Assembly: GCF_012927185.1 (NCBI RefSeq)
Contig: NZ_JABBGB010000002.1
Coordinates: 930,001-994,000, forward strand
Direction of reading: 5' to 3'
DNA: 64,000 bases
DNA from: Pseudoflavitalea sp. G-6-1-2
GTDB taxonomy: Bacteria; Bacteroidota; Bacteroidia; Chitinophagales; Chitinophagaceae
The stretch's first letter is position 1; the number at the start of each line of letters is the position of its first letter. The position numbers and the translations under genes are program-made. Shown here in pieces: positions 34,506 through 48,454 of the stretch. Below the pieces are notes generated by a model. The model saw nothing but the letters and a program-made list of their open reading frames with translations, made no database searches and was not told the DNA's origin.

Positions 34506-34526
34506 AGATTATTTATTATTCCGGTA

Positions 34527-34565
34527 CAAAAGTACACGCATTATGGTAGTTTCATATCCCTGCAA
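34527..34565 (-). promoter_or_regulatory. Promoter with weak TCS-type element (DUF4412-like operon)
   Basis: Minus strand: -7 box TACTTTTG (34534-34527), and 22 bases upstream TTGCAGGGATA (34565-34555), 9 of 11 identical to the core TTCCGGGGATA seen before the DUF4870 and lipoprotein genes. Confidence 0.35.
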
Positions 34566-34594
34566 TCAGTGATATGAAAGAAACTGCCATGGTT

Positions 34595-34602
34595 TATTTT
34601 TG
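34595..34602 (+). promoter_or_regulatory. -7 box of the membrane protein gene
   Basis: TATTTTTG is an exact TAnnTTTG match, 25 bases before the start codon at 34628. Confidence 0.4.
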
Positions 34603-34627
34603 ATACATTAATCAGGCACACCTAAAG

Positions 34628-35593
34628 ATGATGAAGGAAACAGTCTCCATACTCAACGACCACGACATACGCAGTTTTCAGCTGGAAATCAAAAGAAAGA
34701 AACTTACAGTGAGATCGTTACTGATCGTTTTCCTGTTCTTTCTTGCTTTCGCCCTGTATATATTGATAGGAACTGTGCAGGAAATAATCGAGGGGACAGA
34801 TATACTTTTTTACTTCTCTGCGATCGGTTTGTTTTTGCTTGTCTGTCTCTTCTTCTCTGCACGAAAACTCTATAACCTGCAACAGGCCTGCCATTCAGGA
34901 TCAAAAACCGTCTACTCCGGCATTATTAAAAGCCTGCAGATAAAAGGGCCTAACAAACTCATCTACAATATCAGCGGGCAATCGGTATTGGTAGATCTTC
35001 CCGCACCACTGGCAGGAATCATAGGTGCCAACTCTCTGCTTGATACAGAGATCAAACTTTCAGTTTTCCCGCTTCGGTCTGGCAGGAACTTTTTTCTGAG
35101 CGTTGATTACCCAGGATATATGACAGCTACAGCATCCATCGTACCATTCGGGGATGATGACAGAACCCAGTTCGAAAAGCAACTGAAAGCTGAACCATGG
35201 GCAAGTCTCAGGATCACCGGATATATTCTTGCGGCTTTGGTTGTGTTTTTATTGCTGATCAAAGGCGCTGAATTCTGGTTCTTTATCCTCGGCGTATTTG
35301 CACTCATCTATGGAATTGTTTTATGGTTGACCGTAGCAGGAACCCGTATTCTGCGGAAAACAAAAGAGAAACAGGTGGTAACCGGAACCATTACTGAGTC
35401 ACTTTACTTCAAACACAAAGTGGGCAGATATGGTGGATGGAGCTATTCAACCTGGTACAGAATCGGTAATGATTTGTATCATGGAATACCGGGCGACAAG
35501 GGATCGCTGAAACCTGGTGAACAGTACAGAATTGAATACTACTTAGATAAGAAAAGAAAACGCGGATCGATTTTTCAGATTCAAAAATTGTAG
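34628..35593 (+). CDS. Membrane protein of unknown function
   Basis: 321 residues with four hydrophobic segments in two pairs: about 30-50 and 58-78, then about 195-212 and 215-238. A soluble domain lies between the pairs (SGIIKSLQIKGPNKLIYNIS, a beta-rich part) and another at the C-terminus (TGTITESLYFKHKVGRYGGW...KPGEQYRIEYYLDKKRKRGS). The C-terminal part recalls DUF3592-like extracytoplasmic domains, but I cannot assign it. The two halves have a similar plan (helix pair, then VVxGxI-type strand), suggesting an internal duplication. Confidence 0.7.
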   Translation: MMKETVSILNDHDIRSFQLEIKRKKLTVRSLLIVFLFFLAFALYILIGTVQEIIEGTDILFYFSAIGLFLLVCLFFSARKLYNLQQACHSGSKTVYSGIIKSLQIKGPNKLIYNISGQSVLVDLPAPLAGIIGANSLLDTEIKLSVFPLRSGRNFFLSVDYPGYMTATASIVPFGDDDRTQFEKQLKAEPWASLRITGYILAALVVFLLLIKGAEFWFFILGVFALIYGIVLWLTVAGTRILRKTKEKQVVTGTITESLYFKHKVGRYGGWSYSTWYRIGNDLYHGIPGDKGSLKPGEQYRIEYYLDKKRKRGSIFQIQKL

Positions 35594-35677
35594 ACAGTTA
35601 TCCTATTGCTTTTGCTGCCGGGCATTGGTTTAACGGATTTTCTCCGGCATCTTCTTCGCTTCTTCGATAATCGATAT

Positions 35678-37156
35678 CTATTCATCTTCATTGAGAAAAT
35701 AAAGCCGCTTTTCCATAGAGAGGAAATACTGAATTGCTTTTTTATATTTCTCCGTATCGGTTCTTCCTACAAAATAGGTTTCATGTTCATCCCCCTGCCC
35801 ATCACGGGTGTAGAGCAGTACTTTTGTTTCGCCATTCAATAACTCGCGGATATGGAAAATGTAGAATTCATAATCATCCTTCTTGCCGGGAATTTCTTTG
35901 CAGATTCGAAATTTACCCCAACCAACATTATCTTCATCAGGTTGCGTAAAACCCATCCCGAATGATGATTGCCAGAGATCTTCATCGCTATCCGGACCAT
36001 ATTCCTTCGCAATATCCAATGCAAGTATTTTTTCAACACGCTTCCGTGTAACGGTTTCATCGAATTTATGCATGTAGTACTCCATTTCAGACCACTCAGT
36101 CAGCAGGTTTTTCCAGAGGGTTGATCCCATCGAAATAAATGGCCGCTGCCCGGGGAGCGTGGGATCGAAGTAATACCAGTCCGGTTCTTTGTCTTTTTCA
36201 ATGATACGTACCAGAATATTCAACTCCTGCTTTGTTTCCGCAGCATCTTCCTGATCGCCTGCAAGTTGAAATCCTACTAAGATCGCTTTGTTCCCCTGTT
36301 CAAAATAAACGGTTTCCGAGAAAGGCATTTCTTTCATGACCCTTACTCTTTTGTAATCTGCCCCTTTCCAGTATTCCTGTGTTTGCCAGCCCTCATTTTT
36401 ATCGGCAGGATAATTGTCCAGGAAAAGGATTGAATTCCGGAGACGTGTGAGATTTTCTATGGTAAGCAGATCATCCTTAAACACAAACGGAATGCTTTCC
36501 GGCACTTTTTCCACGAGTACAGATCTGCCTTCGTCAAAAAATGCTCTGATAGTACTTCGCACAATGATCGGCTCATCATCACCCAGTATTAGCACTTCAG
36601 GATTGAGGATGGATAAGGCATCATCATCGAGCATGTCTCTTTCGTCCCAGAGAAAATGCTGCACATCTACCATTCTTTTTTCGTCGAAGCGCTTATAATC
36701 GAAGTGGTAATCTTTGGAGATGAATACCCGGGCAGTAATAGAACCGTTTACCTTTAGTTCACCATGATTGTACTCTCCAAAGAATAGTTCAGCTACCTGA
36801 AGATTTTTATCGACGTAGATCTCCTGGCCACCTACCACGATGTTCTTTGCTGTAAGATCGCCGAGCACAATCAAACCGGTTGCACTATCTACTTCTTCGT
36901 TGTAGATATAGTTATCTACGACCATATTTCCTTCTACCAGAATCAGCAGCGCATAACCGGGCTCAACACCGCGGCTTTCAATTCCGAATGGATCATTCAG
37001 ATCGAGATCACTGATATGCAGATCACCATTGAAATACAGTACTGGTTCATTATCCAACTCTCCGTTTTTCCTTTCATTCCGGCTATAAGCCCAGCAGTCT
37101 TTGGGGAGTTTATGCTTGATGTCTGAAAACAATAATTGCTGATAATTGATGCTCAT
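35678..37156 (-). CDS. Unknown protein with polymer-forming-like beta repeats
   Basis: 492 residues, no signal peptide. Residues about 35-160 contain short beta turns with phrases such as YFNGDLHISDLDLND, LVEGNMVVDN, LIVLGDLTAKNIVVGGQ, LKVNGSITARVFISKD, the rhythm of right-handed beta-helix or bactofilin-like folds. The rest is mixed and acidic, ending with GWGKFRICKEIPGKKDDYEF and TRDGQGDEHETYFVGRTDTE. Proteins of this style occur near polymorphic-toxin immunity genes, which is also the setting here (immunity-like genes at 39.8-42.2 kb). It is 13 bases downstream of a small secreted-protein gene, likely one operon. Confidence 0.6.
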   Translation of the reverse strand: MSINYQQLLFSDIKHKLPKDCWAYSRNERKNGELDNEPVLYFNGDLHISDLDLNDPFGIESRGVEPGYALLILVEGNMVVDNYIYNEEVDSATGLIVLGDLTAKNIVVGGQEIYVDKNLQVAELFFGEYNHGELKVNGSITARVFISKDYHFDYKRFDEKRMVDVQHFLWDERDMLDDDALSILNPEVLILGDDEPIIVRSTIRAFFDEGRSVLVEKVPESIPFVFKDDLLTIENLTRLRNSILFLDNYPADKNEGWQTQEYWKGADYKRVRVMKEMPFSETVYFEQGNKAILVGFQLAGDQEDAAETKQELNILVRIIEKDKEPDWYYFDPTLPGQRPFISMGSTLWKNLLTEWSEMEYYMHKFDETVTRKRVEKILALDIAKEYGPDSDEDLWQSSFGMGFTQPDEDNVGWGKFRICKEIPGKKDDYEFYIFHIRELLNGETKVLLYTRDGQGDEHETYFVGRTDTEKYKKAIQYFLSMEKRLYFLNEDE

Positions 37157-37169
37157 AGGGTGATTAATT

Positions 37170-37760
37170 TTATTGATGGCTTTGTGTTTGTTCTTTCTGA
37201 TATTCCTCTTCCCTGATTGTCAGTTGTTCTCTGTTGATGCCGGCTGCAATGTCATTCGAATAAAGGGTTGTTCCATCCGGCAACTGAAGTTTATATCGGA
37301 TTCTTGCAGAGAGGCTTCCTTCATAAGCAGGAATGGGAAACTTCCAATATTCTTTCGATGACAATACCAGTTTATGTTTGCTGTTTCCACAAGTTATTGA
37401 TGGAAGGTACTCGACAGGCTGCCATTGTTCATCAACCCAGGCTTCTGCAATAATATTCAGGCGACTGTCAAGTGCAGGCAATTCAAGTGCCATAGCAGTT
37501 CCATTGGAAAGATACAATGCCCACGGAGCAGCTTTTGTTTCCCTGAATAATTTCAGCGTTACAGCAAACAACACAAAGGGTATTCTGTTGTCAGCAGGTT
37601 TCGGGAAATTATCACTGGGTGCAAAACCACCTGCGGCGCTGCTGTCATGCACGCGGGATGCTGCATAACAATACCCTTGTTTCATATAATGAATATTCAT
37701 TGGTTGAGCATTTAAAGTTTGTATGGCAAATACAGCTGCTATGATTATTCTCCATCTCAT
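37170..37760 (-). CDS. Small secreted protein, paralogue of the 37820-38896 gene
   Basis: About 196 residues from ATG 37760. Signal peptide (MRWRIIIAAVFAIQTLNAQ). The mature part begins MNIHYMKQGYCYA and shares a full set of blocks with the next protein: ADNRIPF, LxLSNG, DSRLNIIAEAWVDEQWQPVE, KIRYKL/RIRYKL, LPDGTTLYSN, GINREQL. Unknown family, probably periplasmic. The upstream region carries a 20-base element 17/20 identical to the pair at 45384 and 48374. The blocks show it arose by duplication; it lacks the C-terminal half of its paralogue. Confidence 0.7.
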   Translation of the reverse strand: MRWRIIIAAVFAIQTLNAQPMNIHYMKQGYCYAASRVHDSSAAGGFAPSDNFPKPADNRIPFVLFAVTLKLFRETKAAPWALYLSNGTAMALELPALDSRLNIIAEAWVDEQWQPVEYLPSITCGNSKHKLVLSSKEYWKFPIPAYEGSLSARIRYKLQLPDGTTLYSNDIAAGINREQLTIREEEYQKEQTQSHQ

Positions 37761-37775
37761 ATCAATTCTATTTAT

Positions 37776-37826
37776 CGGATTTATTCTTTGCTCACAATGA
37801 AGCATCTCTCCGGAACTGGCTATTTT
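37776..37826 (-). promoter_or_regulatory. TCS-type promoter element
   Basis: On the minus strand AAAATAGCCAGTTCCGGAGA (37826-37807) differs at 3 of 20 positions from the element before the DUF4870 gene. A -7-like TAAATCCG (37783-37776) sits after exactly 23 bases. The -7 match is imperfect. Confidence 0.5.
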
Positions 37827-38896
37827 TTCGTAAATACAACATCGATTTTGAAGACCTTCTTATTCTTGTAGAATACAAACAACTGCTTGTTTCCGGGTAA
37901 ATTCCAACTATCTGCATTCCAATCTTTTTCTTCACGATAATCACCTTGCTGCTTCAGCTTTTCTCTCACATTTTTTCTGCTATCGCTGAATTGAAGTCTA
38001 AAGGGAAGTTCACCTGCATATGTTCTTACCTCATTGTGAAATATCACAGCATGCAACACCCATGATACTTTTCCGGGAACCTTCCTGTAGCTTTCTTTGA
38101 AGGCGGAGGCATCAATAAATTCCAGGTGCAGACTACCGCCTGCAACAGGCCAATATCTTTGGTGTGCCGCCCTGATGGGCATTTGCATAAGGTAATTGTC
38201 CCAGATGTTCAAAGACTGGAAGATGGCTTTCAATTCAACATCATCACTGCTCTTCCCAACTGCCGACAGCCAGACTTCAGCAGGAATTGCTTCTGGCAGG
38301 CTTTCATCGCTGAGATTCTCCACTCTCAGCTGATCTGGTAAAGTTTCTTCCTTCACCGATAACTGTTCCTTGTTGATGCCACACCAAAGCTCATTCGAGT
38401 ACACAAAAGTGCCATCAGACAGACTGAGTTTGTAACGGATCTTTGTGGTTATGTCTCCTCTGTAGCCGGGAATGTTAAAGCTCCAGTAGTGCAAGGGAGC
38501 AAGATCCACAATCACCTGATGGCTGTCTATATGTTGAGGCATATACTCTATCGGCTGCCAGGCTTCATCTACCCATGCTTCGGCAATAATGGGCAATCTG
38601 CTGTCAGTAGTGCGAAACGAAATCGTTTCATCGATTCCATTGGACAGCATCAGATTTGGAGCGCTGCCGTACCATGGCCTGAAGATTTCCAACGATACTT
38701 TCTTCATAGGAAAAGGTACTCTGTTATTGATTCCACAGGGATAGTTGGCAGACAGCTTTGCATCATCCGAGGCAGTACTGTCTTCTGCAAAGCCTGATGC
38801 AAAACAATATCCTGCTTTCATATAACGGATATTCATCGTTTGCGCGTTTGCCATGTTAATATAAAACAGTGTAGAAATAATGAAGAATCGTTTCAT
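37820..38896 (-). CDS. Secreted two-part protein, paralogue of the 37170-37760 gene
   Basis: About 358 residues from ATG 38896. Signal peptide MKRFFIISTLFYINMANA, then MNIRYMKAGYCFASG. Residues about 20-195 align with the shorter neighbour (NNRVPF, LMLSNGIDE, DSRLPIIAEAWVDEAWQPIE, TKIRYKLSLSDGTFVYSN, CGINKEQLSVKEE). The remaining 160 residues form an additional domain (HQRYWPVAGGSLHLEFID, VLHAVIFHNEVRTYAGELPF). No family recognised. A longer frame from 38944 runs over the promoter, so the later ATG is preferred. The 59-base gap to the next gene holds that gene's own element. Confidence 0.72.
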   Translation of the reverse strand: MKRFFIISTLFYINMANAQTMNIRYMKAGYCFASGFAEDSTASDDAKLSANYPCGINNRVPFPMKKVSLEIFRPWYGSAPNLMLSNGIDETISFRTTDSRLPIIAEAWVDEAWQPIEYMPQHIDSHQVIVDLAPLHYWSFNIPGYRGDITTKIRYKLSLSDGTFVYSNELWCGINKEQLSVKEETLPDQLRVENLSDESLPEAIPAEVWLSAVGKSSDDVELKAIFQSLNIWDNYLMQMPIRAAHQRYWPVAGGSLHLEFIDASAFKESYRKVPGKVSWVLHAVIFHNEVRTYAGELPFRLQFSDSRKNVREKLKQQGDYREEKDWNADSWNLPGNKQLFVFYKNKKVFKIDVVFTKK

Positions 38897-38916
38897 CCCG
38901 GCATTGATGTTCACTT

Positions 38917-38960
38917 CAAATATAGAATCATTACCCGCTATCACAACTCACCGGAGAACA
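38917..38960 (-). promoter_or_regulatory. TCS-type promoter element
   Basis: Minus strand: TGTTCTCCGGTGA (38960-38948), a variant of the TTCCGGGGA core, then exactly 23 bases, then a perfect -7 box TATATTTG (38924-38917), 20 bases before the start codon. Confidence 0.5.
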
Positions 38961-39065
38961 TGAAATCAAAAATACCGGAAAGCAGGTAGGCGGCACTGTA
39001 TCAGCAGAGACAGGGTTCAATCCTGAAGTATCCGGACAGCGCAAACACTGACCGAAAAATCCCGG

Positions 39066-39105
39066 ATTACGGGGACTTGAAGCGCCGATTGTATCAGTAA
39101 CTTTG
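39066..39105 (+). promoter_or_regulatory. TCS-type promoter element
   Basis: ATTACGGGGACT (39066-39077) is followed 22 bases after GGGGA by a perfect -7 box TAACTTTG (39098-39105), 20 bases before the start codon at 39126. Confidence 0.5.
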
Positions 39106-39125
39106 AACAGCAGAACATTCACAAG

Positions 39126-39782
39126 ATGTACAAATCAATCATCCAAATACTACTTCCAATTCTTGCAACCATGGCAACCCACGCACAGACAGGTAAGCTG
39201 TACGGAGGAGTAATCAATTCAATGTGTGGTAAAACAAGCACTGGAGGATTCAACAACAGTCAGCACAGGCTTTTCCATTTCAAAGAAGACACTGTCGGAA
39301 TCCTCGATTACGAGATTGAATTTAAACAAGATGATCGTCATCATCTGTTCAGCGGAACTCACGGTGACTGGACCTATTACAAATGGACCCAAAAGGGAAA
39401 CACCATCACTATTCAGGGAAAGCAAACTATTTTACTGACGCAACCACCGGGAAATGATTACGAGTTGTTGCAGAAAAACAGCAGCTCCCCGATTCATTTT
39501 TCAATCAAACACCCGCCGCAACCCGCTGCGGACGTAACAGACAGGTCATATGCTTTTGAAAAAGACAATACATCCACGTTGATCTCATTTACCAAAGACA
39601 GTCTGCAAATACTTGAATTCGACTCCGGCGATGTGATCAGTGCTGAAAAATACGGCTGGCTTGCAGTTGACGAAATCATACTCATATTTGGACCTTCCAC
39701 GCAGCAACTGATTTTCTGGAATCGCAACAACACCATCAGTCTGTCAGATGGAAGAGTACTCGGTGAAATCAAAACACTATGA
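39126..39782 (+). CDS. Secreted protein of unknown function
   Basis: 218 residues. Signal peptide (MYKSIIQILLPILATMATHA), then a beta-rich body (DTVGILDYEIEFKQDDRHHL, GTHGDWTYYKWTQKGNTITI) with no family assignment; the repeated 'DTVGILDYE'/'DSLQILEFDSG' strands suggest an internal duplication. The stop overlaps the SUKH gene by 4 bases (ATGA), implying translational coupling. Its promoter carries a member of the local regulatory element. Confidence 0.68.
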   Translation: MYKSIIQILLPILATMATHAQTGKLYGGVINSMCGKTSTGGFNNSQHRLFHFKEDTVGILDYEIEFKQDDRHHLFSGTHGDWTYYKWTQKGNTITIQGKQTILLTQPPGNDYELLQKNSSSPIHFSIKHPPQPAADVTDRSYAFEKDNTSTLISFTKDSLQILEFDSGDVISAEKYGWLAVDEIILIFGPSTQQLIFWNRNNTISLSDGRVLGEIKTL

Positions 39783-40702
39783 ACCCAGGGCTCGAAACAC
39801 TTCTGCAAATTTTCAAGTCGGGATCTCTCATCCGTTCAGAGAAACAAACCGAAAATCGGACATATCGTTTCGAAGGCATTCCGGAACAACATGCCGAAGG
39901 TGCAGAATCGTTGCAGGCGAAACTTGGGTATTCCATCGATAAAAACATCCTCGATTTCATTAGTATTTTCGGTGGAACGAAGTTGTTCATAAACGACTTC
40001 GGAAACAGTATCAATATCTATCCCTTCGATGCAATTCTTACAGAAAACCTTCGTATTGCCGAAGAATTAGGATCATCCCACTTCCCAGTGCTTGTCATGA
40101 TCGGGGAAGATACCGTCGGCGACTACCTCTGTCTCTACAAAGACGTCAAAAATGTAGTGCATTTCGGCAACATGCACCACGAAGTGATGGGTGCTTCACC
40201 TGAAGACTGGATGACTGGTTTCACCTGCGCACATTTCCCTTCATGGCTATCGATGTTTGTAGAGCAGCATGGCAATACGCTTCCGGACAAAACCTGCAGC
40301 TATACAATTTTCGAAACGATCGAGTACATCTATGCTCCACAGGCAAGTCGTTATTTGAAAGCAGGTAAACCTTTGGCGCTTTTTCTCGCAATGAATGTTC
40401 AGGATGGCAAATACATTTACGAGTGGTTGCGGTTTGAAAAACAAGATGCACAGATCAGCGCAACATGGATTCATTCAATCTATCCCGGTGAACATTCAAA
40501 TGATGTGGAGTACTTCGAAACATTCAACAGTAATTACAGCGAAGCAGAAAAGTCAGCCAGTAAGTTTACAGGCAGCTTTGAAGCATGCCTGAACTGGGCA
40601 AAACTGCAACCAGCCTATCATGCAGCAGCATTTCTCAGACTTGCCGATCTGCCTGTTCATTTTTCAGGCATACTATCTCTGATTCAAAAGAAGCATCAAT
40701 AA
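39779..40702 (+). CDS. SMI1/KNR4 (SUKH) family immunity-like protein
   Basis: 307 residues, cytoplasmic. The N-terminal 160 residues show the SUKH pattern: LGYSIDKNILDFISIFGGTK, NIYPFDAILTENLRIAEELG, VLVMIGEDTVGDYLCLYK. In bacteria SUKH proteins are mainly immunity proteins against polymorphic or contact-dependent toxins. The C-terminal half is an extra domain of unknown type (FLAMNVQDGKYIYEWLRFEK). It overlaps the preceding secreted-protein gene by 4 bases. No cognate toxin is visible nearby, so it may be an orphan immunity gene. Confidence 0.72.
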   Translation: MNPGLETLLQIFKSGSLIRSEKQTENRTYRFEGIPEQHAEGAESLQAKLGYSIDKNILDFISIFGGTKLFINDFGNSINIYPFDAILTENLRIAEELGSSHFPVLVMIGEDTVGDYLCLYKDVKNVVHFGNMHHEVMGASPEDWMTGFTCAHFPSWLSMFVEQHGNTLPDKTCSYTIFETIEYIYAPQASRYLKAGKPLALFLAMNVQDGKYIYEWLRFEKQDAQISATWIHSIYPGEHSNDVEYFETFNSNYSEAEKSASKFTGSFEACLNWAKLQPAYHAAAFLRLADLPVHFSGILSLIQKKHQ

Positions 40703-40772
40703 TTCATCATTGGGGAAATAATACAGCCCCAGACCGATTCAATAAAATAAATCTTTCAAAACAAATAGCTGT

Positions 40773-41363
40773 ATGGAAGCCAAAGAACAATTCAGACAAG
40801 CAGCGTTAACAAACGTAATTGAGGTCATCAGCAATATTCCCGAATCCGTCAGAAGAGATATTTATGCCCTGTCTTTCTGGTATGATGGCGATGTTGATGT
40901 GGCGCGTAATGCTGCAATTTTTGTAGGCTACAACACTGAACAATATTATCAAACACAGATCACAAAGGCGCCAACGCCCGCCCAGGCCAGATGGAACTTC
41001 GCATTCTGGCCTCCGAATGAATACGGTACCATTGGCGGTTGTGATAATACTTTTTTACAAAGCTGGTTCCAATCAACTCCCTGGTATTTTTCTGAGGAAG
41101 AAAATGATGAAGCAGATTACGACGATGACCTCACGGAAGAAATTCTCGAAAAAAGTGAACAGCTGGAAAAATTATTCATCGAAGAAATCATTTCACTCAC
41201 ACAACAACTGTTTGCGGAAGGCTGGATAGAAAAAACGTTCCATAGAAACATCCCGATACTCATTCACGAAACCGCATACTACGAAAAGCCCATCAGCTGG
41301 ACAGTCCGTGCCAACCCTCCCGGACTCACCGACGAATTTGTACAGGCATTCCCACTAACATAG
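40773..41363 (+). CDS. DUF4303-like immunity-type protein
   Basis: 196 residues, no signal peptide. The start IPESVRRDIYALSFWYDGDV, then GYNTEQYYQTQ and ARWNFAFWPPNEYGTIGG, follows the pattern of DUF4303 proteins, which often sit in toxin-immunity clusters. The acidic middle (EEENDEADYDDDLTEEILEK) and the C-terminal domain are typical of small immunity proteins. It lies 70 bases after the SUKH gene and before the DUF2314 gene on the same strand. Family match is moderate. Confidence 0.58.
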   Translation: MEAKEQFRQAALTNVIEVISNIPESVRRDIYALSFWYDGDVDVARNAAIFVGYNTEQYYQTQITKAPTPAQARWNFAFWPPNEYGTIGGCDNTFLQSWFQSTPWYFSEEENDEADYDDDLTEEILEKSEQLEKLFIEEIISLTQQLFAEGWIEKTFHRNIPILIHETAYYEKPISWTVRANPPGLTDEFVQAFPLT

Positions 41364-41459
41364 TGATGCAGCATTGCTTCATAAATGAATAACATTGTTA
41401 GCATCATTATTTTGTAATTTGGCGCCTGATTTGTGATAAAACCATCAATAGAAATACCC

Positions 41460-42218
41460 ATGGCAGACACCAAACTCTTTTTTGCAAAAGGCGACAGTCC
41501 CGAAATGATCGCAGCATTTGAAAAAGCTCAACAGACGTTCAAATATTTCTGGAGAGAAATGTCGTGGGAATACCGCCGCATCATTCCTGCATTGGATATG
41601 GCTTGTGTTAAAGTGGCCTTTTCAGAAGAAGTGGCCGGACAGGAAGAACCCATCGTTGAACATATGTGGATCAATCAGGTTGGCTTCGATGGCATAAACG
41701 TTTACGGAGAACTCATCAACGAACCAAACGAACTCACCAATATCAGCAATGGCGATGAAGTAAACGTTCCGCTGACGCAGATCAGCGACTGGCTCTTCGC
41801 ATCCAATGGCAAAACCTACGGAGGATTCACCATTCACGCCATGCGCGCGCAAATGTCTGATGAAGAAAGACAGGAACACGATACTGCATGGGGAATCGAC
41901 TTCGGTGATTTCAACGACATCGAAATTGTGATGAACCAGAAAGAGCAACCCGAAAATCTCGAAGTGCATCCGATGGACAGAAACACCAAAGAAGGCATGC
42001 TCAGTTTCCTGAAAGAAAACCCCGGTGAAGTAAAAACTACCGATGAACTCGGGCTTACCCTGCTGCATATTGAAACCATCGCCGGAAACCTCCATGCCGT
42101 TGAAGCATTGCTGGAAATGGGAGCAGATAAGAATGCTGCTACACCAGACGGAAGAACAGCGCTGGATCTCGCGAAGCTGCTCCAATGGAACCACCTGATT
42201 CCTGTGCTTGAAAAGTAA
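41460..42218 (+). CDS. DUF2314 protein with C-terminal ankyrin repeats
   Basis: About 252 residues from ATG 41460 (MADTKLFFAKGDSPEM). Residues about 10-135 match DUF2314 (IAAFEKAQQTFKYFWREMSW, VEHMWINQVGFDGINVYGEL, GDEVNVPLTQISDWLF, GKTYGGFTIHAMR). The C-terminal 70 residues form about two ankyrin repeats (TTDELGLTLLHIETIAGNLH, AVEALLEMGADKNAATPDGR). Both modules occur in bacterial immunity proteins, consistent with the SUKH and DUF4303-like genes just upstream. A strong terminator follows. Confidence 0.75.
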   Translation: MADTKLFFAKGDSPEMIAAFEKAQQTFKYFWREMSWEYRRIIPALDMACVKVAFSEEVAGQEEPIVEHMWINQVGFDGINVYGELINEPNELTNISNGDEVNVPLTQISDWLFASNGKTYGGFTIHAMRAQMSDEERQEHDTAWGIDFGDFNDIEIVMNQKEQPENLEVHPMDRNTKEGMLSFLKENPGEVKTTDELGLTLLHIETIAGNLHAVEALLEMGADKNAATPDGRTALDLAKLLQWNHLIPVLEK

Positions 42219-42244
42219 AGCTTGCTGAATCATTCAAATATTTC

Positions 42245-42282
42245 GATCCCGGTTAGTGTCAATACTGACCGGGATTCTTTTT
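42245..42282 (+). terminator. Intrinsic terminator
   Basis: ATCCCGGTTAGT (42246-42257) pairs with ACTGACCGGGAT (42264-42275) with one mismatch around a 6-base loop, followed by TCTTTTTG. It ends the immunity-type gene cluster. Confidence 0.8.
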
Positions 42283-42295
42283 GCATAAATACCAG

Positions 42296-42335
42296 TATCC
42301 GGGGATACGCCCGGCCCTCAGTAAGCAGTAATTTG
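42296..42335 (+). promoter_or_regulatory. TCS-type promoter element
   Basis: AGTATCCGGGGATACG (about 42295-42309) contains the perfect inverted repeat TATCC-GG-GGATA. Exactly 23 bases after GGGGA comes TAATTTGC (42329-42336), a weaker -7 box. It precedes the two-gene operon at 42341-43798. Confidence 0.55.
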
Positions 42336-42340
42336 CAGGT

Positions 42341-43099
42341 ATGATACATCCACCCAGCAGCCTTCTGTACCCGGCAGGACAACTCCGCAGCTTCGTGAGC
42401 AAATCTATGTTCATTATACTGCTACTAATCGGCAACATAAGTCATGCACAAAACAAAGTCACTGATTTGGAAGTTTATAAAATAGTATATTCCTCCTATA
42501 CAGAACCACGTGCGGAGGATGGAGAAGTCAAGGCAGTATCCATTCCGAAGAACGAAGTCCATAAATTCTCCTTATTCGCACATTCACGGTATCTTTTGGT
42601 AACCGATCGTATTAGTAAAACAGATTCTTCCAAATGGCTCGTTCAATACAATGAGAAAAAATTGTGGGAACTGCGAGGAAGCATCGCATTGCCCTTGAGT
42701 TATGATGATTTCCTTACCTCGGATGTTTATCTTGAAAACGAAGAGCGGGATAGTCTGCTGATGGATTATGGCATATTGACTTTTACAGTAGACACGGCCA
42801 CTATTGAAGGGTATCACTGCAAAAAAGCCATTATCGAAATTACGGCAGCCGATAAAGTAAGTTCTGATCCGAAAAAATTGATGCATATCTGGTATTGCCC
42901 GGAGCTTCCGGCTGCTTATTGGCCAACTATGAATCATCTGGAAAGGATACCGGGCGCCTTGCTCCTGACGAAATACGACAGGGGATACGGAGATGTAGAA
43001 TGCATCAGGGTCAAAAAAATCACTAAGCAGAAAAAAGCCGCTACCTTTTTCAATATACCGAAGAATATGATGATTCTCTATCCTCCTTCAATGAATTAA
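42341..43099 (+). CDS. Secreted GLPGLI-like protein
   Basis: Up to 252 residues. The mature part resembles the GLPGLI family: TATIEGYHCKKAIIE, HIWYCPELPAAYWP, LERIPGALLLTKYD, typical of secreted Bacteroidota proteins of unknown role. The signal peptide ends MFIILLLIGNISHAQ. The start is uncertain: ATG 42341 would be almost at the predicted transcription start, ATG 42407 lacks a basic residue, and GTG 42395 (MSKSMFIILL) gives the best signal. It is followed after 6 bases by a second secreted-protein gene. Confidence 0.68.
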   Translation: MIHPPSSLLYPAGQLRSFVSKSMFIILLLIGNISHAQNKVTDLEVYKIVYSSYTEPRAEDGEVKAVSIPKNEVHKFSLFAHSRYLLVTDRISKTDSSKWLVQYNEKKLWELRGSIALPLSYDDFLTSDVYLENEERDSLLMDYGILTFTVDTATIEGYHCKKAIIEITAADKVSSDPKKLMHIWYCPELPAAYWPTMNHLERIPGALLLTKYDRGYGDVECIRVKKITKQKKAATFFNIPKNMMILYPPSMN

Positions 43100-43105
43100 A
43101 CTGTA

Positions 43106-43798
43106 ATGAACAAATTCCGTTCTGTGACACTGCCTCTTTGTTGTATCCTGTCTTTGGCACCAGCCCGGCAGACGATGGCGCAAAGCAAATCCCGTGCAGA
43201 TATATTGCTCACGAATGCTTCAGGAGATTCTTTACTGCTTCCTGCATCATATTATCAGGCAGTCCTGAAACATTACCCTGAACTGATCCATCATGCAAAA
43301 CCACAGGCTCCGGATCAACTGTATTTTTCAAGAAGCTCTGCACTGCTCTTCTTCGACAGCGAAGCCGGTAAAGATTTGTATTATGATGTCTATGCATACT
43401 TTCTGAAACAATCACAACCTGGCAAGGCTGCCATCAGAAAAAAACTGGATAGCCTGTTCCGCCATATCCATACCCTGTATGCGCAGCTGAAATGCAGTGG
43501 TGGTCAATATTACGTCCATCGGGAGAACCGCATACCAGCATATGTTGAATACGCTGTTCACAAATATTCAAGATCTCCAGAACAGTCCATTGATAATGCG
43601 GCAAAACAGCGGCTTATCGCATCACTTCGTCAGTTGGTAAACGATGAGCTTGAAATTGATGATGATGTAGTTGGATGCGAAGCAGAACGCAAACAAACAC
43701 TACCTGCCCTGATCGTGTCTATCGACTCATTGATTACAGAAAATTTCTACCTACAGGAAGCACTGTCATTTCTGGAAGCCACAAAAAAAGGAGACTAA
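43106..43798 (+). CDS. Secreted protein of unknown function
   Basis: 230 residues with signal peptide (MNKFRSVTLPLCCILSLAPA, cleavage near TMAQ). Helical, Tyr/Gln-rich body, no recognised family: ADILLTNASGDSLLLPASYY and YAYFLKQSQPGKAAIRKKLD. Six bases after the GLPGLI-like gene and in the same operon, hence under the same promoter element. Convergent with the next pair of genes. Confidence 0.65.
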   Translation: MNKFRSVTLPLCCILSLAPARQTMAQSKSRADILLTNASGDSLLLPASYYQAVLKHYPELIHHAKPQAPDQLYFSRSSALLFFDSEAGKDLYYDVYAYFLKQSQPGKAAIRKKLDSLFRHIHTLYAQLKCSGGQYYVHRENRIPAYVEYAVHKYSRSPEQSIDNAAKQRLIASLRQLVNDELEIDDDVVGCEAERKQTLPALIVSIDSLITENFYLQEALSFLEATKKGD

Positions 43799-43838
43799 AG
43801 TCCCCTCCAAATGTAAAAACGTTATTGCATTCCCTTTA

Positions 43839-44354
43839 CTAACAAGGGCCCCAGTAAGAGATCCGGATCAGTTTTCCACCTTTGAAATCGAACTTAAAAA
43901 CATCATCAGAGCTCAGATCCAGTTCGAGAAACATCTCCGTCGTTCCTCCATTCTTTTTAGCCTGCTTCGCAGAAACCGGAAATTGTTTGCTCATTTGTTC
44001 CAGTGTGGTGTTACGATCGAACCTGCCACCAGACCAGGTAATAAACGCATCCGGACTCTTCACCAAATCGATGCTATGATAAAAAACACTATCCCTGTTC
44101 TTCTCTATGTCGAATCCTTTAATGCGGATCACATGCGACTCCGCCGCTTCCTGCGGGAAAAAAGATCCGCACTCCAATGCTTCAGGATTGGTGTAGGTAA
44201 CCAGCCCCAGCAACTTCACAACATCACTCAGTTTGCAGGGTAGCGAGAGTTTTCCGTTCAGCTTTAAAGTGGCCACAGATAAAGTTTCTTTAGTCTGCGC
44301 AGACACCTGAAAAGCAGCAGCAAAGAAGGCTGTAAGAACAAGGAGTTTTTTCAT
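43839..44354 (-). CDS. Small secreted protein, tandem paralogue A
   Basis: 171 residues. Signal peptide (MKKLLVLTAFFAAAFQVSA). Shares with the neighbouring gene the blocks KLNGK, HVIRIKGF/VVRIKGV, DLVKSPDAFITWSGGRFDRNTTLEQ (there DFSKSPDVFISWSGGRIDNATTLQD) and an ending with DVFKFDFKGGKLI. Unknown family, beta-rich, probably periplasmic. The two genes are 52 bases apart on the same strand and clearly arose by tandem duplication; identity is only about a third, so the duplication is old. Confidence 0.7.
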   Translation of the reverse strand: MKKLLVLTAFFAAAFQVSAQTKETLSVATLKLNGKLSLPCKLSDVVKLLGLVTYTNPEALECGSFFPQEAAESHVIRIKGFDIEKNRDSVFYHSIDLVKSPDAFITWSGGRFDRNTTLEQMSKQFPVSAKQAKKNGGTTEMFLELDLSSDDVFKFDFKGGKLIRISYWGPC

Positions 44355-44406
44355 AATGATTTTTAATAAAAAAAACTACTGCTTTTATGCAATAGCGGGA
44401 TGATGA

Positions 44407-44934
44407 TTAATTGTTTTCATCATAAATAATATGGTAGATCAGTTTTGTAATCTTTCCGTTGTTGAATTCCAGTATCCAAACATCATTGGAATCACCGAGT
44501 GTACGGATCCAGAATTTCTTTGCATCCTGATTGGTCTTTTCTTTGGCTGTTCTCGGGAAACGCTTTCTGATGTCCTGCAAAGTGGTTGCATTATCAATTC
44601 TTCCTCCGGACCAGCTGATAAACACATCAGGGCTTTTGCTGAAATCGATGGCACGCAGGTGCGCATTCTCTACACAGGTTTCCAGCTCAACACCTTTGAT
44701 ACGTACCACATTTGAAGGCGCTTCTTCGGCAACGTAATATGCTCCGCTTTTCAAATCATCCGGCTCTCTGTGAGTGATTGCACCAAGCTCTTTCACTATA
44801 TTCTTCAGTTTGGCATCCAGCACCGGAATTTTCCCATTGAGTTTCACAATTTTGGGATTGAGAAACTCCGTCTGAGCAGCTACCTGCAGCGCAGAAATCA
44901 CACATAGCAAAAGGAATAAGGCCTGTTTTTTCAT
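44407..44934 (-). CDS. Small secreted protein, tandem paralogue B
   Basis: 175 residues with signal peptide (MKKQALFLLLCVISALQVAA). Homologous to the gene just downstream through KSPDVFISWSGG and VVRIKG blocks. It lies 57 bases after the DUF4870 gene with a perfect hairpin between. No -7 box is evident in front, so it probably depends on the DUF4870 promoter by read-through. Confidence 0.7.
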   Translation of the reverse strand: MKKQALFLLLCVISALQVAAQTEFLNPKIVKLNGKIPVLDAKLKNIVKELGAITHREPDDLKSGAYYVAEEAPSNVVRIKGVELETCVENAHLRAIDFSKSPDVFISWSGGRIDNATTLQDIRKRFPRTAKEKTNQDAKKFWIRTLGDSNDVWILEFNNGKITKLIYHIIYDENN

Positions 44935-44951
44935 GCTTTGTTTTTTGAAAT

Positions 44952-44984
44952 CCGTTCGTCCCGTTTTTGAAACGGGACGAACGG
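44952..44984. terminator. Perfect 15-bp hairpin between DUF4870 and paralogue B
   Basis: CCGTTCGTCCCGTTT (44952-44966), loop TTG, AAACGGGACGAACGG (44970-44984). The minus-strand 3' flank is ATTTCAAAAAAC, so the U-tract is weak; it could be a processing or attenuation hairpin instead of a full terminator. Confidence 0.55.
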
Positions 44985-44991
44985 CCAGATA

Positions 44992-45321
44992 TTATTTATC
45001 GAGAAAACTAAATTTATCTTCAAACATCGGTCCAACAACCGGCACAGGTTTCATCTTTTCGTTTGCGGCATTGATGATGCCCAGTATCCAGAGTACCAGC
45101 AGCACAATGTTTACATAAGTGAGTACTGCAAGTGCCGGAACCATACGCACCACAATTCCCAGAATTATGCCGATTACGATGCCAATGATGGCCAGTCCGA
45201 GCGATTGTTTCAAATGATAGCTCACCAACGGATCTTTCGCTTTGTCTTTATATTGAAAGAACGCGATCAGCCAGCCAATGATTGTAATGTAGGAAATAAT
45301 TGAGAGTGTTTTCTTGTCCAT
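44992..45321 (-). CDS. DUF4870 (Tic20-like) membrane protein
   Basis: 109 residues with three to four hydrophobic segments (ISYITIIGWLIAFFQY, LGLAIIGIVIGIILGIVV, ALAVLTYVNIVLLVLWILG) and the C-terminal signature AANEKMKPVPVVGPMFEDKF, as in DUF4870/Tic20-like small membrane proteins of unknown role. It stands 87 bases downstream of the response-regulator gene on the same strand but has its own promoter with an element identical over 23 bases to that of the lipoprotein gene at 48455. It is therefore a likely direct target of this two-component system. Confidence 0.82.
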   Translation of the reverse strand: MDKKTLSIISYITIIGWLIAFFQYKDKAKDPLVSYHLKQSLGLAIIGIVIGIILGIVVRMVPALAVLTYVNIVLLVLWILGIINAANEKMKPVPVVGPMFEDKFSFLDK

Positions 45322-45355
45322 CTTGTGGTGTTTTTGTCATTGTTTATTGATATGG

Positions 45356-45406
45356 CAAAATTACCTGCAAGCAAGGAGCTACACTATCCCCGGAACCAGC
45401 TATTTT
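45356..45406 (-). promoter_or_regulatory. TCS-type promoter element, DUF4870 gene
   Basis: Minus strand: a 23-base element (45406-45384) containing AAAATAGCTGGTTCCGG then GGATAG, followed 20 bases later by the -7 box TAATTTTG (45363-45356). All 23 bases and the spacing are identical to the copy at 48374-48396. Confidence 0.75.
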
Positions 45407-45408
45407 GA

Positions 45409-46032
45409 TCAGATCAGTCCATACTTCGATGCGAGTTTGATCACCGCAGTCATCGAAGCCACATCGAATTTTTCGATCATGTTCTTGCGATGGCTTTCTA
45501 CCGTGTGCATGCTGATGAAGAGCTTCTCTGCAATCTGCGTGGTGGTGAGTCCCTGACTTACCAGCTCCAGAATTTCTTTTTCTCTTCTGGTGATCTTTGG
45601 AATTTCTGCCAGATCGTTTTCCGACACCTGCGCCATGATCTCCTTCGTTTTGCGGCAGAGATAATTATTGCCATTGAGCGTAGTGTGGATGGCAGTGATG
45701 ATTTCCTCTCCTACTGAATTCTTCAGCACATAACCATTGGCGCCACTGTTGAGCATATTCTTGATTACCGTGCGTTCGTTGTGTACACTGAGTGCAATGA
45801 TGCGGATATCCTTATCATGTTTACGCAGCTGCCTGCAGATCTCAGCACCATCGATATCGGGAAGATTTATATCGAGCAATACAACATTCGGATCGAGTTT
45901 ACCGATGGCTTCAATACCTGATTTCCCATTCTCGAAATATCCGGCGAGCGACATATCGTCGCGATTGGATAACAGGTTCTTCAGTCCTTCCAGCACAATC
46001 GGGTGGTCGTCGATAATGATCACTTTAATCAT
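45409..46032 (-). CDS. NarL/FixJ-type response regulator
   Basis: 207 residues. Receiver domain with acidic pair Asp8-Asp9 and phosphoacceptor Asp54 (NVVLLDINLPDIDG), and a C-terminal LuxR-type helix-turn-helix (TRREKEILELVSQGLTTTQI, AEKLFISMHTVESHRKNMIE). It is encoded 12 bases after the histidine kinase gene. Proteins of this family bind 7-base inverted repeats with a 2-base spacer, the same geometry as the TATCC-GG-GGATA element found before several local genes. Confidence 0.92.
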   Translation of the reverse strand: MIKVIIIDDHPIVLEGLKNLLSNRDDMSLAGYFENGKSGIEAIGKLDPNVVLLDINLPDIDGAEICRQLRKHDKDIRIIALSVHNERTVIKNMLNSGANGYVLKNSVGEEIITAIHTTLNGNNYLCRKTKEIMAQVSENDLAEIPKITRREKEILELVSQGLTTTQIAEKLFISMHTVESHRKNMIEKFDVASMTAVIKLASKYGLI

Positions 46033-46044
46033 GATTCAGCTTTA

Positions 46045-48288
46045 TTATTTGATAGAACATTCAATAGTAAATGTGGTGCCTGTACCGGGAGCCGATTGCA
46101 GATCCAGCCTGCCATGCAGCATTTCCACCCGCGAGCGGATATTGGCAAGCCCGGCTCCTTTGAGGCTTTCCAGCTGCGATTTATCGAGGCCTTTGCCATC
46201 GTCTTCCACAGTGAGAAAAATATGATCGTCGCTTTGCTGCAGCTGCACCAGTATTTGCGAGGCTGCGGCATGTTTTACGGCATTGTTCACCAGCTCCTGC
46301 ATAATGCGATACAGGGTAACCTGACGGCTGTGATCCATATCGTTTTTGTATCGCACAACCTGACAGTCGATAGCGATGCCCGATTTCTTAAGCCCGTTGC
46401 AATATTCGCGCGTGGCTTCTCCCAGGCCGTATGTGAGCAGCACTTCGGGCATCATGCTTTTGGCAATTCTGCGCAGTTCATCAACAGCATTGTCGAGATG
46501 ATCGAGAGAGTTGCTTACAATGGTTTGCTGCTTTTCTTCCTTCACCAACGGAGTCAATCCGGATAGTTGGATTTTTACGCCGGAGAGCAATCCACCGAGC
46601 CCATCGTGCAGATCGCGCGCGAGGCGGCTTCGCTCCTGCTCCTGCCCTTCGAGCATGGCGGAGAGGTTGGAAATGCGGTGCTCCTGTTTCATTTTATCTA
46701 CCTCAAATTCGTGCAGCCTCTTCGCCTGCTTCAGTGTTTTGGAACGTTGCTTGTAGGCGTAGAAAAGAAAGAGCAGCACCAGCAGCAAAGCCACTGCGAG
46801 TGCGGCATAGATGCGGTTCATCTTTCTGTTGAAGTTCATTCTTTCTTCCATCGCACGCAGTTCCTGCTCACGTTTGGCCGTTTTGAAATTGGCATTGGTG
46901 AGTGCCAGTTGCTTCTGTTCGGTTTCGAACCTGGCAGCCAGCAACGCCTTGTCTTTTTCTGAAGCGGCATAGCGGGCTGCAAGTAAGGCCTGGTCTTTTT
47001 CTCCTGACAATAATCTTGCCTGAATCAATTCTCTGTTACGCTGTTCAGCGATGAGCCGTATTTCGAGCAGGGCCTTTTCTTTCTTCGCATTTTCATACCG
47101 GGCTTCAAGCTCTTTGGTCTTGTTCATTTTACTGGCATCGAACAACTCTTCATACAGCTTCATGTATTGTTTGTAATGATGCAGTGCCTGGGCAGTATCT
47201 CCCCGTTTATCGTATGCTTCGGCTACGCCGAGAAAAGATTGCGATAGATTGAATTTATCAGCCATCGGATCTGTGATGCTTACGGAAAGGGCCTGATTGT
47301 AATAGGCAATGGCTGAATTATAATCGTTATTGCTTTGCGCAATGCTGCCGAGCATATTGTACACGCCGGCCTGTACCGAAAACTGTTTGGTGCGTTTACC
47401 TTCTACCAGTGCAATCTCGTTGTAATAATCGATACTGTCTTTGTATTCTTTTGTTTTGGGGAAGTAGGCGAGAAATATATTGGAGATGCCGATGGCGCTG
47501 AAAGGTATATCGCTGGGCGTGATCAATCTCTCCCGATTATTCATTGCAAGATTGAGGGATGTGCGCATGTAATACAGCGCTGAATCGAGCCATACACGCT
47601 GCGATTCATCGTTGCGGAACATATTGATGAAGTAAGAACCTCTGTCCTGATTGGCGGTGATCAGTTTGTCGAGCAGATTGAGTTTCTTAGCTGTTTCCAG
47701 TGCAAGCCTGGTGTATTTCTCCACATTGGGGAGATCGTACCAATGGAAGTAGATGCCCACCATTTCACCATAGATGGTCTGTTGAAACTTCAATGAAGTA
47801 ACCGGTTCCTGCTCAAACAGATCGAGTGCCTGCTGAAAAGACTGCATGGCCTGTGGCTCTTTCTGGGCACGGCTTTCAAGCCATCCTTTGCAGTAGAGCA
47901 CATATCCCTGCGAGGTTTTACTGGTAGTTCTTTTAGAATACCTGAAAGCACTGTCGAGTGCACGATCAGAAGCTTCGCTGTCGCCGGTAATGGAGAAAGA
48001 TAATGCCAGCGCTCCGTATGCGTGTGCACGGTATTTTCCGTCTTTCAGCGGAGCTGCCATGGCGATGGCTTCGCGATAGATATCCTGCCCTTCGGTCCAG
48101 TCTTTATTGAAGAACACAGCCTGCGCCAGACGCACCATGGTTTCAACACGGGTACCAAGCGGAAGGCTTTTCTGATTTACGATATTCCTCAGAGAGTCTT
48201 CCAGCCGCTGTGCATGCACGTTAGTGCACAAGAATGCCAGTATCAAAATAATTACACCATGTATAGATATCCGTTTCCGGTTTGTCAT
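46045..48288 (-). CDS. TPR-containing sensor histidine kinase (HisKA_3)
   Basis: 747 residues. Signal peptide, periplasmic TPR array (about 30-400; for example GSIAQSNNDYNSAIAYYNQA), a coiled-coil stretch with near-repeats of EKDxALLAARx (about 410-490), one transmembrane helix (AALAVALLLVLLFLFYAY), then a HisKA_3 domain with phosphoacceptor His561 in RLARDLHDGLGG and an HATPase with NNAVKHAA and GKGLD...GAGLANIRSRV. The TPR sensor type is common in Bacteroidota and probably detects a protein or envelope signal. Own -7 box TAGTTTTG at 48355-48348. Confidence 0.92.
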   Translation of the reverse strand: MTNRKRISIHGVIILILAFLCTNVHAQRLEDSLRNIVNQKSLPLGTRVETMVRLAQAVFFNKDWTEGQDIYREAIAMAAPLKDGKYRAHAYGALALSFSITGDSEASDRALDSAFRYSKRTTSKTSQGYVLYCKGWLESRAQKEPQAMQSFQQALDLFEQEPVTSLKFQQTIYGEMVGIYFHWYDLPNVEKYTRLALETAKKLNLLDKLITANQDRGSYFINMFRNDESQRVWLDSALYYMRTSLNLAMNNRERLITPSDIPFSAIGISNIFLAYFPKTKEYKDSIDYYNEIALVEGKRTKQFSVQAGVYNMLGSIAQSNNDYNSAIAYYNQALSVSITDPMADKFNLSQSFLGVAEAYDKRGDTAQALHHYKQYMKLYEELFDASKMNKTKELEARYENAKKEKALLEIRLIAEQRNRELIQARLLSGEKDQALLAARYAASEKDKALLAARFETEQKQLALTNANFKTAKREQELRAMEERMNFNRKMNRIYAALAVALLLVLLFLFYAYKQRSKTLKQAKRLHEFEVDKMKQEHRISNLSAMLEGQEQERSRLARDLHDGLGGLLSGVKIQLSGLTPLVKEEKQQTIVSNSLDHLDNAVDELRRIAKSMMPEVLLTYGLGEATREYCNGLKKSGIAIDCQVVRYKNDMDHSRQVTLYRIMQELVNNAVKHAAASQILVQLQQSDDHIFLTVEDDGKGLDKSQLESLKGAGLANIRSRVEMLHGRLDLQSAPGTGTTFTIECSIK

Positions 48289-48347
48289 TCCTTATAAATT
48301 AATAGCAGCAGCAACAGCCAATCGATAGCACACCACTGCAACTTACG

Positions 48348-48355
48348 CAAAACTA
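48348..48355 (-). promoter_or_regulatory. -7 box of the histidine kinase operon
   Basis: TAGTTTTG on the minus strand is an exact TAnnTTTG match. The 23-base element at 48374-48396 lies between this box and the divergent lipoprotein promoter, so it could regulate both. Confidence 0.5.
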
Positions 48356-48373
48356 CCACTCCTCAGCCGCATT

Positions 48374-48424
48374 AAAATAGCTGGTTCCGGGGATAGAAAA
48401 CCCCTGCATACCGGTATAATTTTG
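48374..48424 (+). promoter_or_regulatory. TCS-type promoter element, lipoprotein gene
   Basis: A 23-base element (48374-48396) containing AAAATAGCTGGTTCCGG then GGATAG, and after exactly 20 bases the -7 box TAATTTTG (48417-48424), 31 bases before the start codon. Same sequence and spacing as the copy before the DUF4870 gene. Confidence 0.75.
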
Positions 48425-48454
48425 TGTCATTAGAAAAAACAAAAATAATTGAAG

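Follow-up and report, generated by a model that had tools for sequence, protein, structure and literature searches.

A recurrent promoter dyad accompanying a NarL-type two-component system and candidate envelope genes in Pseudoflavitalea

The canonical site of ComA, a NarL-family regulator of Bacillus subtilis, is an inverted repeat with a 4-base spacer that is bound by a dimer (PMC4797271), and NarL of Escherichia coli can support promoter activity when its single site is centred at -44.5 (PMC7419079). Promoters of the primary sigma factor in Bacteroidota carry TAnnTTTG at -7 and TTTG near -33, and no -33 motif could be identified in Flavobacterium johnsoniae (PMC7366714); all three papers are cited here from part of their text. 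We analyzed a 64,000-nucleotide stretch of Pseudoflavitalea sp. G-6-1-2 (contig NZ_JABBGB010000002.1, positions 930,001 to 994,000, forward strand; the window), in which a conserved dyad precedes the genes of a two-component system, a NarL/LuxR-type response regulator and a histidine kinase with an N-terminal tetratricopeptide repeat (TPR) region, as well as several nearby genes for apparently secreted or membrane proteins. To our knowledge, few targets of HisKA_3-type systems have been established in Bacteroidota. Two-component systems that regulate themselves and a set of nearby genes are of a familiar kind; among the titles and abstract beginnings listed in a literature search there was no description of this operator or regulon, nor of its bidirectional use or its recurrence across genera.

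The dyad shares the 4-base spacer of the ComA site, but its half-site is ATCCCnG rather than TTGCGG, and ComA belongs to another phylum and promoter type and serves a quorum response. The proposed binder is of the same regulator family as NarL of E. coli, whose sites have a 7-2-7 arrangement with a 2-base spacer, unlike the 4 bases of the window operator; the NarL half-site also differs from ATCCCnG. The full TAnnTTTG box (6/6) is present at six of these seven promoters of the window, and the box of the 42289 promoter matches at 4/6. None of the seven has TTTG within the 28 bases 5' of its box, and two have TTG there; the operator occupies that place. This absence is weak evidence because the -33 motif went likewise unfound in F. 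johnsoniae (PMC7366714). The TPR part of the window kinase weakly matches the model of FimS (NF053520), from the FimS-FimR system of Porphyromonas gingivalis, but scores 34.9 bits against a cut-off of 600, and no FimR operator appeared among the titles and abstract beginnings listed.

The operator dyad and its promoters

Comparison of homologous loci across genomes (Chitinophaga eiseniae, Pedobacter sp. Bi126 and the genomes that we designate G006, G250, G352, G376 and G010) defined the shared element as an 18-bp dyad, ATCCCnG-N4-CnGGGAT, with a TAnnTTTG box 20-21 bases 3' of it in the window and at the homologous loci. This gap counts the bases from element position 19 to the T of TAnnTTTG. 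Counting both orientations of 17 dyads, five of which are window sites, the inner C of the half-site never varies (34/34), the G is kept in 32/34, and the outer A and the outer T in 31/34 each. The dyad centre lies 30-31 bases 5' of the first TAnnTTTG base, about -42 by the usual numbering, so that the dyad covers the -33 region.

An earlier note on this DNA had listed seven sites by eye, with a 7-2-7 geometry placed 23 bases (22 in two cases) before a -7 box. All seven sequences are present where it put them, and the spacing is indeed fixed, although we count it as a gap of 20 or 21. The arrangement, however, is 7-4-7, and the axis of the note was 4 bp off; the 12-mer TATCCGGGGATA at 42296, for example, is symmetric locally yet sits 4 bp away from the conserved axis. 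Five of the sites (34565, 39066, 48374, 45406 and 42296) fit one dyad, and all five dyads are intergenic. They score 24.6 (34556-34573), 23.2 (39059-39076), 22.8 (48377-48394), 22.8 (45386-45403) and 21.2 (42289-42306) in the final model, whose training set includes them; the independent test is the matrix from other genomes described below. Two sites that the note had ranked as weaker, 39066 and 34565, are thus among the best, and 38960, one of its main five, scores -2.8 and was rejected. The site at 37826 was kept only as a weak candidate: its dyad (37806-37823, minus strand) has 4/22 mismatches to the 48374 element, reaches into the end of gene 37820-38944 and scores 10.6, with the box TAAATCCG at gap 21.

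Three of the five dyads face a single gene. On the plus strand, ATCCCGG-ATTA-CGGGGAC (39059-39076) has the box TAACTTTG at 39098-39105, gap 20, and ATACCAG-TATC-CGGGGAT (42289-42306) has the imperfect box TAATTTGC at 42329-42336, gap 21; on the minus strand, ATAGCTG-GTTC-CGGGGAT (45386-45403) has TAATTTTG at 45363-45356, gap 21. The same dyad recurs at 48377-48394. Indeed, the 22-mer around 48374 (plus strand) and 45406 (minus strand) is identical at both sites, and the genome has no further copy of it with 3 or fewer mismatches; each element stands 21 bases 5' of TAATTTTG, and the intervening spacers differ.

The remaining two operators have boxes on both sides. The 48377-48394 dyad faces the lipoprotein gene through TAATTTTG (48417-48424, plus strand, gap 21) and the histidine kinase gene through TAGTTTTG (48348-48355, minus strand, gap 20); a genome of the same genus, G001, has the dyad with 1 mismatch and a kinase-side box TAGATTTG, also at gap 20. 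Similarly, ATCCCTG-CAAT-CAGTGAT (34556-34573), the top dyad of the 284 kb ranked below, lies 20 bases from TATTTTTG (34595-34602, plus strand), which faces gene 34628, and 20 bases from TACTTTTG (34527-34534, minus strand), which faces gene 33681; its counterpart between the homologous gene pair of G001 (locus L036, 1427-1444) has gaps of 20 and 21. Such bidirectional dyads, flanked on either side by a box that matches in 5 or 6 of its 6 positions at gap 20 or 21, number eight in six genomes, and five have 6/6 on both sides; the cases in G352, G376 and G010 have one box at 5/6 and an uncertain far-side gene. From this geometry the two-component system looks autoregulated and two window operators look bidirectional, both of which are additional to the earlier note, as are the boxes at 48355-48348 and 34595-34602. 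Also absent from its list is a second, weaker dyad, ACCCCTG-CATA-CCGGTAT (48400-48417), between the 48377 operator and its plus-strand box, which scores 19.4, or 16.6 without same-genus training, and for which no correctly spaced -7 box was found.

Enrichment at the locus and recurrence across genomes

We ran a matrix built from 13 dyads, all from other genomes, on the window and 220 kb of background from the same genome (eleven stretches; 284 kb in total). The six best dyads all lie between 34556 and 48417, the weakest scoring 18.6, and the next best, at 15.2, is a background site. Because the G001 training sites are related by descent to the window sites, the test was repeated without them: the window dyads then scored 23.0, 22.9, 17.9, 17.9, 17.7 and 16.6, against 14.5 for the best of the 220 kb background. 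With this genus-free training, the best score in 40 dinucleotide shuffles of 34400-48500 averaged 9.5 and reached at most 18.0, and dyads of at least 15 numbered 0.05 per shuffle. The four lower window sites are thus individually near the shuffle extreme, but the six as a group are far outside it.

Whole genomes were scanned with a composite element of 18 positions and a gap of 20 or 21, allowing at most 2 mismatches, a pattern that was drawn up after the window sites had been seen and that misses a shortened site in G001. The 6.1-Mb genome (6 contigs) holds seven matches, six of them at the locus, and a reversed control pattern, allowed 3 mismatches, gave 0-2 matches on each strand of a genome. 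The half-element GGGATA-N10..36-TAnnTTTG, tallied in G000 (the own genome), G001, C. eiseniae and G010 and not in G006 or Pedobacter, has gap 20 or 21 in 7 of 22 own-genome matches (3 at the locus), in 3 of 17 in G001 (3 at the locus) and in 3 of 34 in C. eiseniae (2 at the locus). Pooled over these three genomes, 8/13 matches with gap 20 or 21 are at the two-component locus, compared with 0/60 with other gaps.

The genome has 19 HisKA_3 kinases, and around the other 18 only 3 dyads score at least 13 (17 stretches, 175 kb); the best of them, at 16.8, precedes the gene of a kinase that is paired with a regulator 46% identical to the window regulator. Loci of distant regulators hold 5 such dyads (37 loci, 492 kb). 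A palindrome profile made without the motif found 8 near-perfect palindromes at gap 20-21 in the homologue loci, including one with an unrelated sequence, compared with 0-3 for each gap elsewhere, and no spacing peak in the own paralogue loci, the background or the distant-regulator loci. Since the own paralogue loci show no peak, we do not claim this geometry for all NarL systems of the genome.

The regulator's nearest named homologue is that of C. eiseniae (81% identity). G001 has a kinase 71% and a regulator 88% identical, keeps most of the neighbouring gene order, and has operator counterparts in three intergenic regions despite differing spacers: the 48374 element with 1 mismatch stands before the lipoprotein homologue, 21 bases 5' of TACTTTTG, and a counterpart of the 45386 site, one base shorter, lies between the regulator and the DUF4870-like gene, 21 bases 5' of TAGTTTTG. 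We then considered 12 homologue loci with regulators 53-100% identical (the window, G001, C. eiseniae, G006, Pedobacter, G250, G352, G376, two in G010 and two in Olivibacter). A dyad scoring at least 13 stands beside the kinase or regulator in 12/12, and in 9/12 one of these genes is faced, at gap 20 or 21, by a -7 box that matches in 5 or 6 of its 6 positions. The Olivibacter dyads, which are outside the training set, score 19.3 and 16.2, and 15.4 and 15.6 in the second species. The recognition-helix core HTVESHRK is common to 10 of 11 translated homologue regulators (G376 was left out), and the second copy of G010 reads HTVDSHRK; the own-genome paralogous regulator that is 46% identical reads LTIETHRR. 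The regulator and the best kinase match of G006 are on different contigs, with one operator between regulator and lipoprotein, at gap 20 on both sides, and a second directly behind the kinase, before a GLPGLI-like gene (L038 9799), not upstream of the kinase.

Across 59 relatives, within which the order-level genomes were searched by kinase alone, the composite at gap 20 and 2 mismatches gives 36 matches in 18 genomes. The seven one-mismatch matches fall in G000 (3), G001 (1) and G006 (3), genomes with regulator identities of 100, 88 and 77%, respectively. A literal 21-mer search across the family, which found 59 of 394 genomes within 3 mismatches, was rejected as background because 24 of the 32 outside matches with loci lie within open frames of at least 200 codons and none has a box of at least 5/6 at gap 20 or 21.

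The group of window sites is therefore real and better founded than a count by eye, and the earlier observation of a shared promoter element is partly confirmed. The enrichment, the co-occurrence across genera and the rarity near other HisKA_3 kinases also favor the note's suggestion of a local regulon of the regulator at 45409-46032.

Proposed regulation and rival explanations

Our preferred reading, to which we give a probability of roughly 80% from sequence comparison, is that the NarL-type regulator binds the dyad as a dimer near -42 and activates its own operon, the LIC11966-type lipoprotein gene and nearby envelope genes. The proteins belong to the families that the earlier note had named: the regulator (45409-46032, minus strand, 207 residues) and the kinase (46045-48288, minus strand, 747 residues) score above the Pfam cut-offs for Response_reg (1.3e-27) and GerE (3e-18), and for HisKA_3 and HATPase_c, respectively. 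The kinase N terminus resembles a signal peptide by eye, and because of this the TPR part is probably periplasmic. The kinase would sense a periplasmic or envelope cue and phosphorylate the regulator, a dimer of which would bind ATCCCnG-N4-CnGGGAT. Because the dyad is centred near -42 over the -33 region, the bound regulator would most likely act as a class-II-type activator, and activation is also the likeliest role because NarL is active from -44.5 and the ComA site is a 4-base-spaced inverted repeat, as far as the cited portions of those papers go. It would then drive its own kinase-regulator operon, giving positive feedback, together with the divergent lipoprotein gene and the envelope genes at 45321, 42341, 39126, 34628 and 33681, two operators serving both directions. 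The link between regulator and operator is drawn from association and conservation.

Several observations weigh against this reading, or at least against a strictly local regulon. The -7 box at 42289 is poor. Among the homologue loci, the kinase-side box of Pedobacter is imperfect and at gap 19, both Olivibacter loci have their box, at gap 21 or 22, directed at the divergent gene, and, Olivibacter excepted, the matrix used for scoring was trained on many of the sites that it scores. The one own-genome composite match outside the locus (C3:1148815) precedes the gene of an apparently secreted 299-residue protein, and the 5-kb stretch around it (L154) contains dyads scoring 19.0, with no good -7 box, and 17.6, with TAGTTTTG at gap 21, the first above and the second close to the 18.6 of the weakest window dyad; four extra 5-kb stretches with half-element matches, L154 among them, stood outside the 284-kb ranking. 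At 3 mismatches the locus accounts for 6/11 own-genome matches at gap 20 and 3/13 at gap 21. The genome-wide scan that the earlier note had named as a check bears out the concentration in the own genome, but in other genomes many matches are off-locus: these are 3/7 in G001, 5/8 in G006, 3/5 in C. eiseniae, 4/7 rows in G250 (two of the four being one site) and 6/8 in G352, with 4/7, 3/8, 2/5, 3/7 and 2/8, respectively, at the locus or loci of the system. One off-locus match in G006, before a 235-residue reading frame (C28:206266), is perfect, and only 1 of the 6 GGGATA matches at gap 20 or 21 in G010 (of 54 in all) is at the system. Lastly, G002, of the same genus, has a syntenic 2-mismatch operator before its 33681 homologue, and no regulator was found in this assembly, which is 88% complete; its contig stops at the DUF2314 gene that in G001 neighbors the system. 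In other genomes, then, the element is not confined to the two-component locus, and off-locus matches may be distant regulon members or sites of related regulators. They and the placement of the G006 kinase add slight weight against a strictly local regulon.

These off-locus dyads, and the G002 dyad that lacks a detected regulator, also speak for the idea that another transcription factor binds the dyad and merely regulates the two-component system and its neighbors. Association differs from binding, and a similar dyad also precedes the kinase of the related own-genome NarL pair, with its 46% identical regulator. We nevertheless hold a different factor to be improbable: the dyad accompanies this regulator across genera, in G006 it stands at the regulator promoter and also, on another contig, before the gene that follows the kinase, all one-mismatch gap-20 matches among the 59 relatives are in the three genomes with a close regulator homologue, and 4-base-spaced inverted repeats are documented for ComA of the NarL family (PMC4797271, in the part cited). 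Repression by the same regulator, blocking RNA polymerase from over the -33 region, has a modest claim and is unlikely. The dyad is located where the polymerase would contact -33, and a position near -42 is compatible with either role; the fixed spacing of 20-21 is more expected under activation, and the promoters without an upstream TTTG and the activity of NarL from -44.5 (PMC7419079, likewise in part) lean the same way, although none of the three is decisive.

The fixed distance to the -7 box would also suit recognition of the element by an alternative sigma factor, as an extended form of its -33 motif. The box, however, is the ordinary TAnnTTTG, and eight dyads in six genomes have boxes on both sides at gap 20 or 21; this very improbable reading was dropped on account of the bidirectional dyads. 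As for a chance likeness that caught the eye, or remnants of a repeat, the identical 22-mer at 48374 and 45406 could suggest a recent duplication, but the dyad-to-box spacers differ, each of the two sites has its own counterpart in G001, and the shuffles and background disfavor chance; we consider the probability of either origin negligible.

Candidate targets and related systems

Activation by the NarL-type regulator would extend to the following genes. Gene 48449-48931 (plus strand, probable start 48455) encodes a putative lipoprotein target that belongs to the LIC11966 family by its score of 139.6 bits against NCBIfam NF047958 (cut-off 40), and falls below the cut-off of the narrower NF038294 (114.1 bits against 200). 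Its homologues in G001 and G006 also have the operator, and adjoin the system in G001 and the regulator in G006. The putative target at 44992-45321 (minus strand) is a small membrane protein, DUF4870-like but below the Pfam cut-off (19.6 bits against 25), and is followed on the same strand by genes 44407-44934 and 43839-44354. At 42341-43099 (plus strand), with gene 43106-43798 directly after it, lies a putative target for an apparently secreted GLPGLI-like protein, below the cut-off of TIGR01200 (30.5 bits against 50); as noted, the G006 homologue has an operator of its own. The other putative targets are an apparently secreted protein for which a Pfam search of the open reading frame gave no family (39126-39782, plus strand), an apparently multi-pass membrane protein, judged from its sequence (34628-35593, plus strand), and an apparently secreted protein with a weak DUF4412 match (33681-34505, minus strand; 17 bits against a cut-off of 21.6). 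Taken together, the candidate targets suggest an envelope response.

Small membrane proteins of 64 and 85 residues also follow the operator in C. eiseniae (L070 8639) and G250 (L149 11488), respectively; they resemble each other (...GPAWAIKIGL... and ...GPAWGIKIAL...), and neither the 64-residue protein nor a 58-residue piece of the 85-residue protein matched a Pfam family. Gene 39779-40702 (SMI1/KNR4-like, just under the cut-off) overlaps the 3' end of 39126-39782, and the SMI1/KNR4-like and DUF2314-ankyrin genes (39779-42218) are located downstream of the 39059 operator.

Related dyads were seen at other systems. G352 has ATCACCG-GTTC-CCGGTAT (L187, 3566-3583) with a lipoprotein-like gene on one side and, on the other, a kinase paired with a 46% identical regulator; it has a gap of 21 to TACCTTTG one way and of 20 to TATTTTTT the other; the architecture is the same and the half-site different. 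Within the own genome (L196; C2:604000-614000), ATACCGG-GAAA-CAGGTAA lies at 5500-5517, about 50 bases upstream of the paralogous kinase, whose kinase-regulator pair is divergent from a small lipoprotein-like gene. Five of 20 selected composite-scan sites from G006, G250 and G352 lie upstream of short peptides (L169, L174, L176 and L182 of G006; L186 of G250). The dyads there resemble the operator more loosely, as does AATACCAG-GAAT-CCGGTATT in L186, and stand 20-21 bases 5' of TAnnTTTG, and four of the five peptides score above the cut-off for the NCBIfam class I lanthipeptide leader NF038153. A NarL-type regulator controlling lanthipeptide precursors is thus a lead.

We propose only tentatively, and with some doubt, that NarL-type regulators paired with TPR kinases, in this order of Bacteroidota and its neighbors, generally have as their operator a dyad near -42, often used in both directions between a kinase and an envelope gene, with variants of the recognition helix choosing the half-site (ESHRK for ATCCCnG, ETHR for AT(A/C)CCGG). 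If this were true, the regulons of many uncharacterized systems would be readable from sequence, including one that possibly controls lanthipeptide precursors. At the present locus, the operator, its geometry, the apparent autoregulation and a candidate target set were all derived from sequence and hold across genera, offering a template for assigning other regulons, and the LIC11966-type lipoprotein would be tied to a dedicated, probably envelope-related signaling system.

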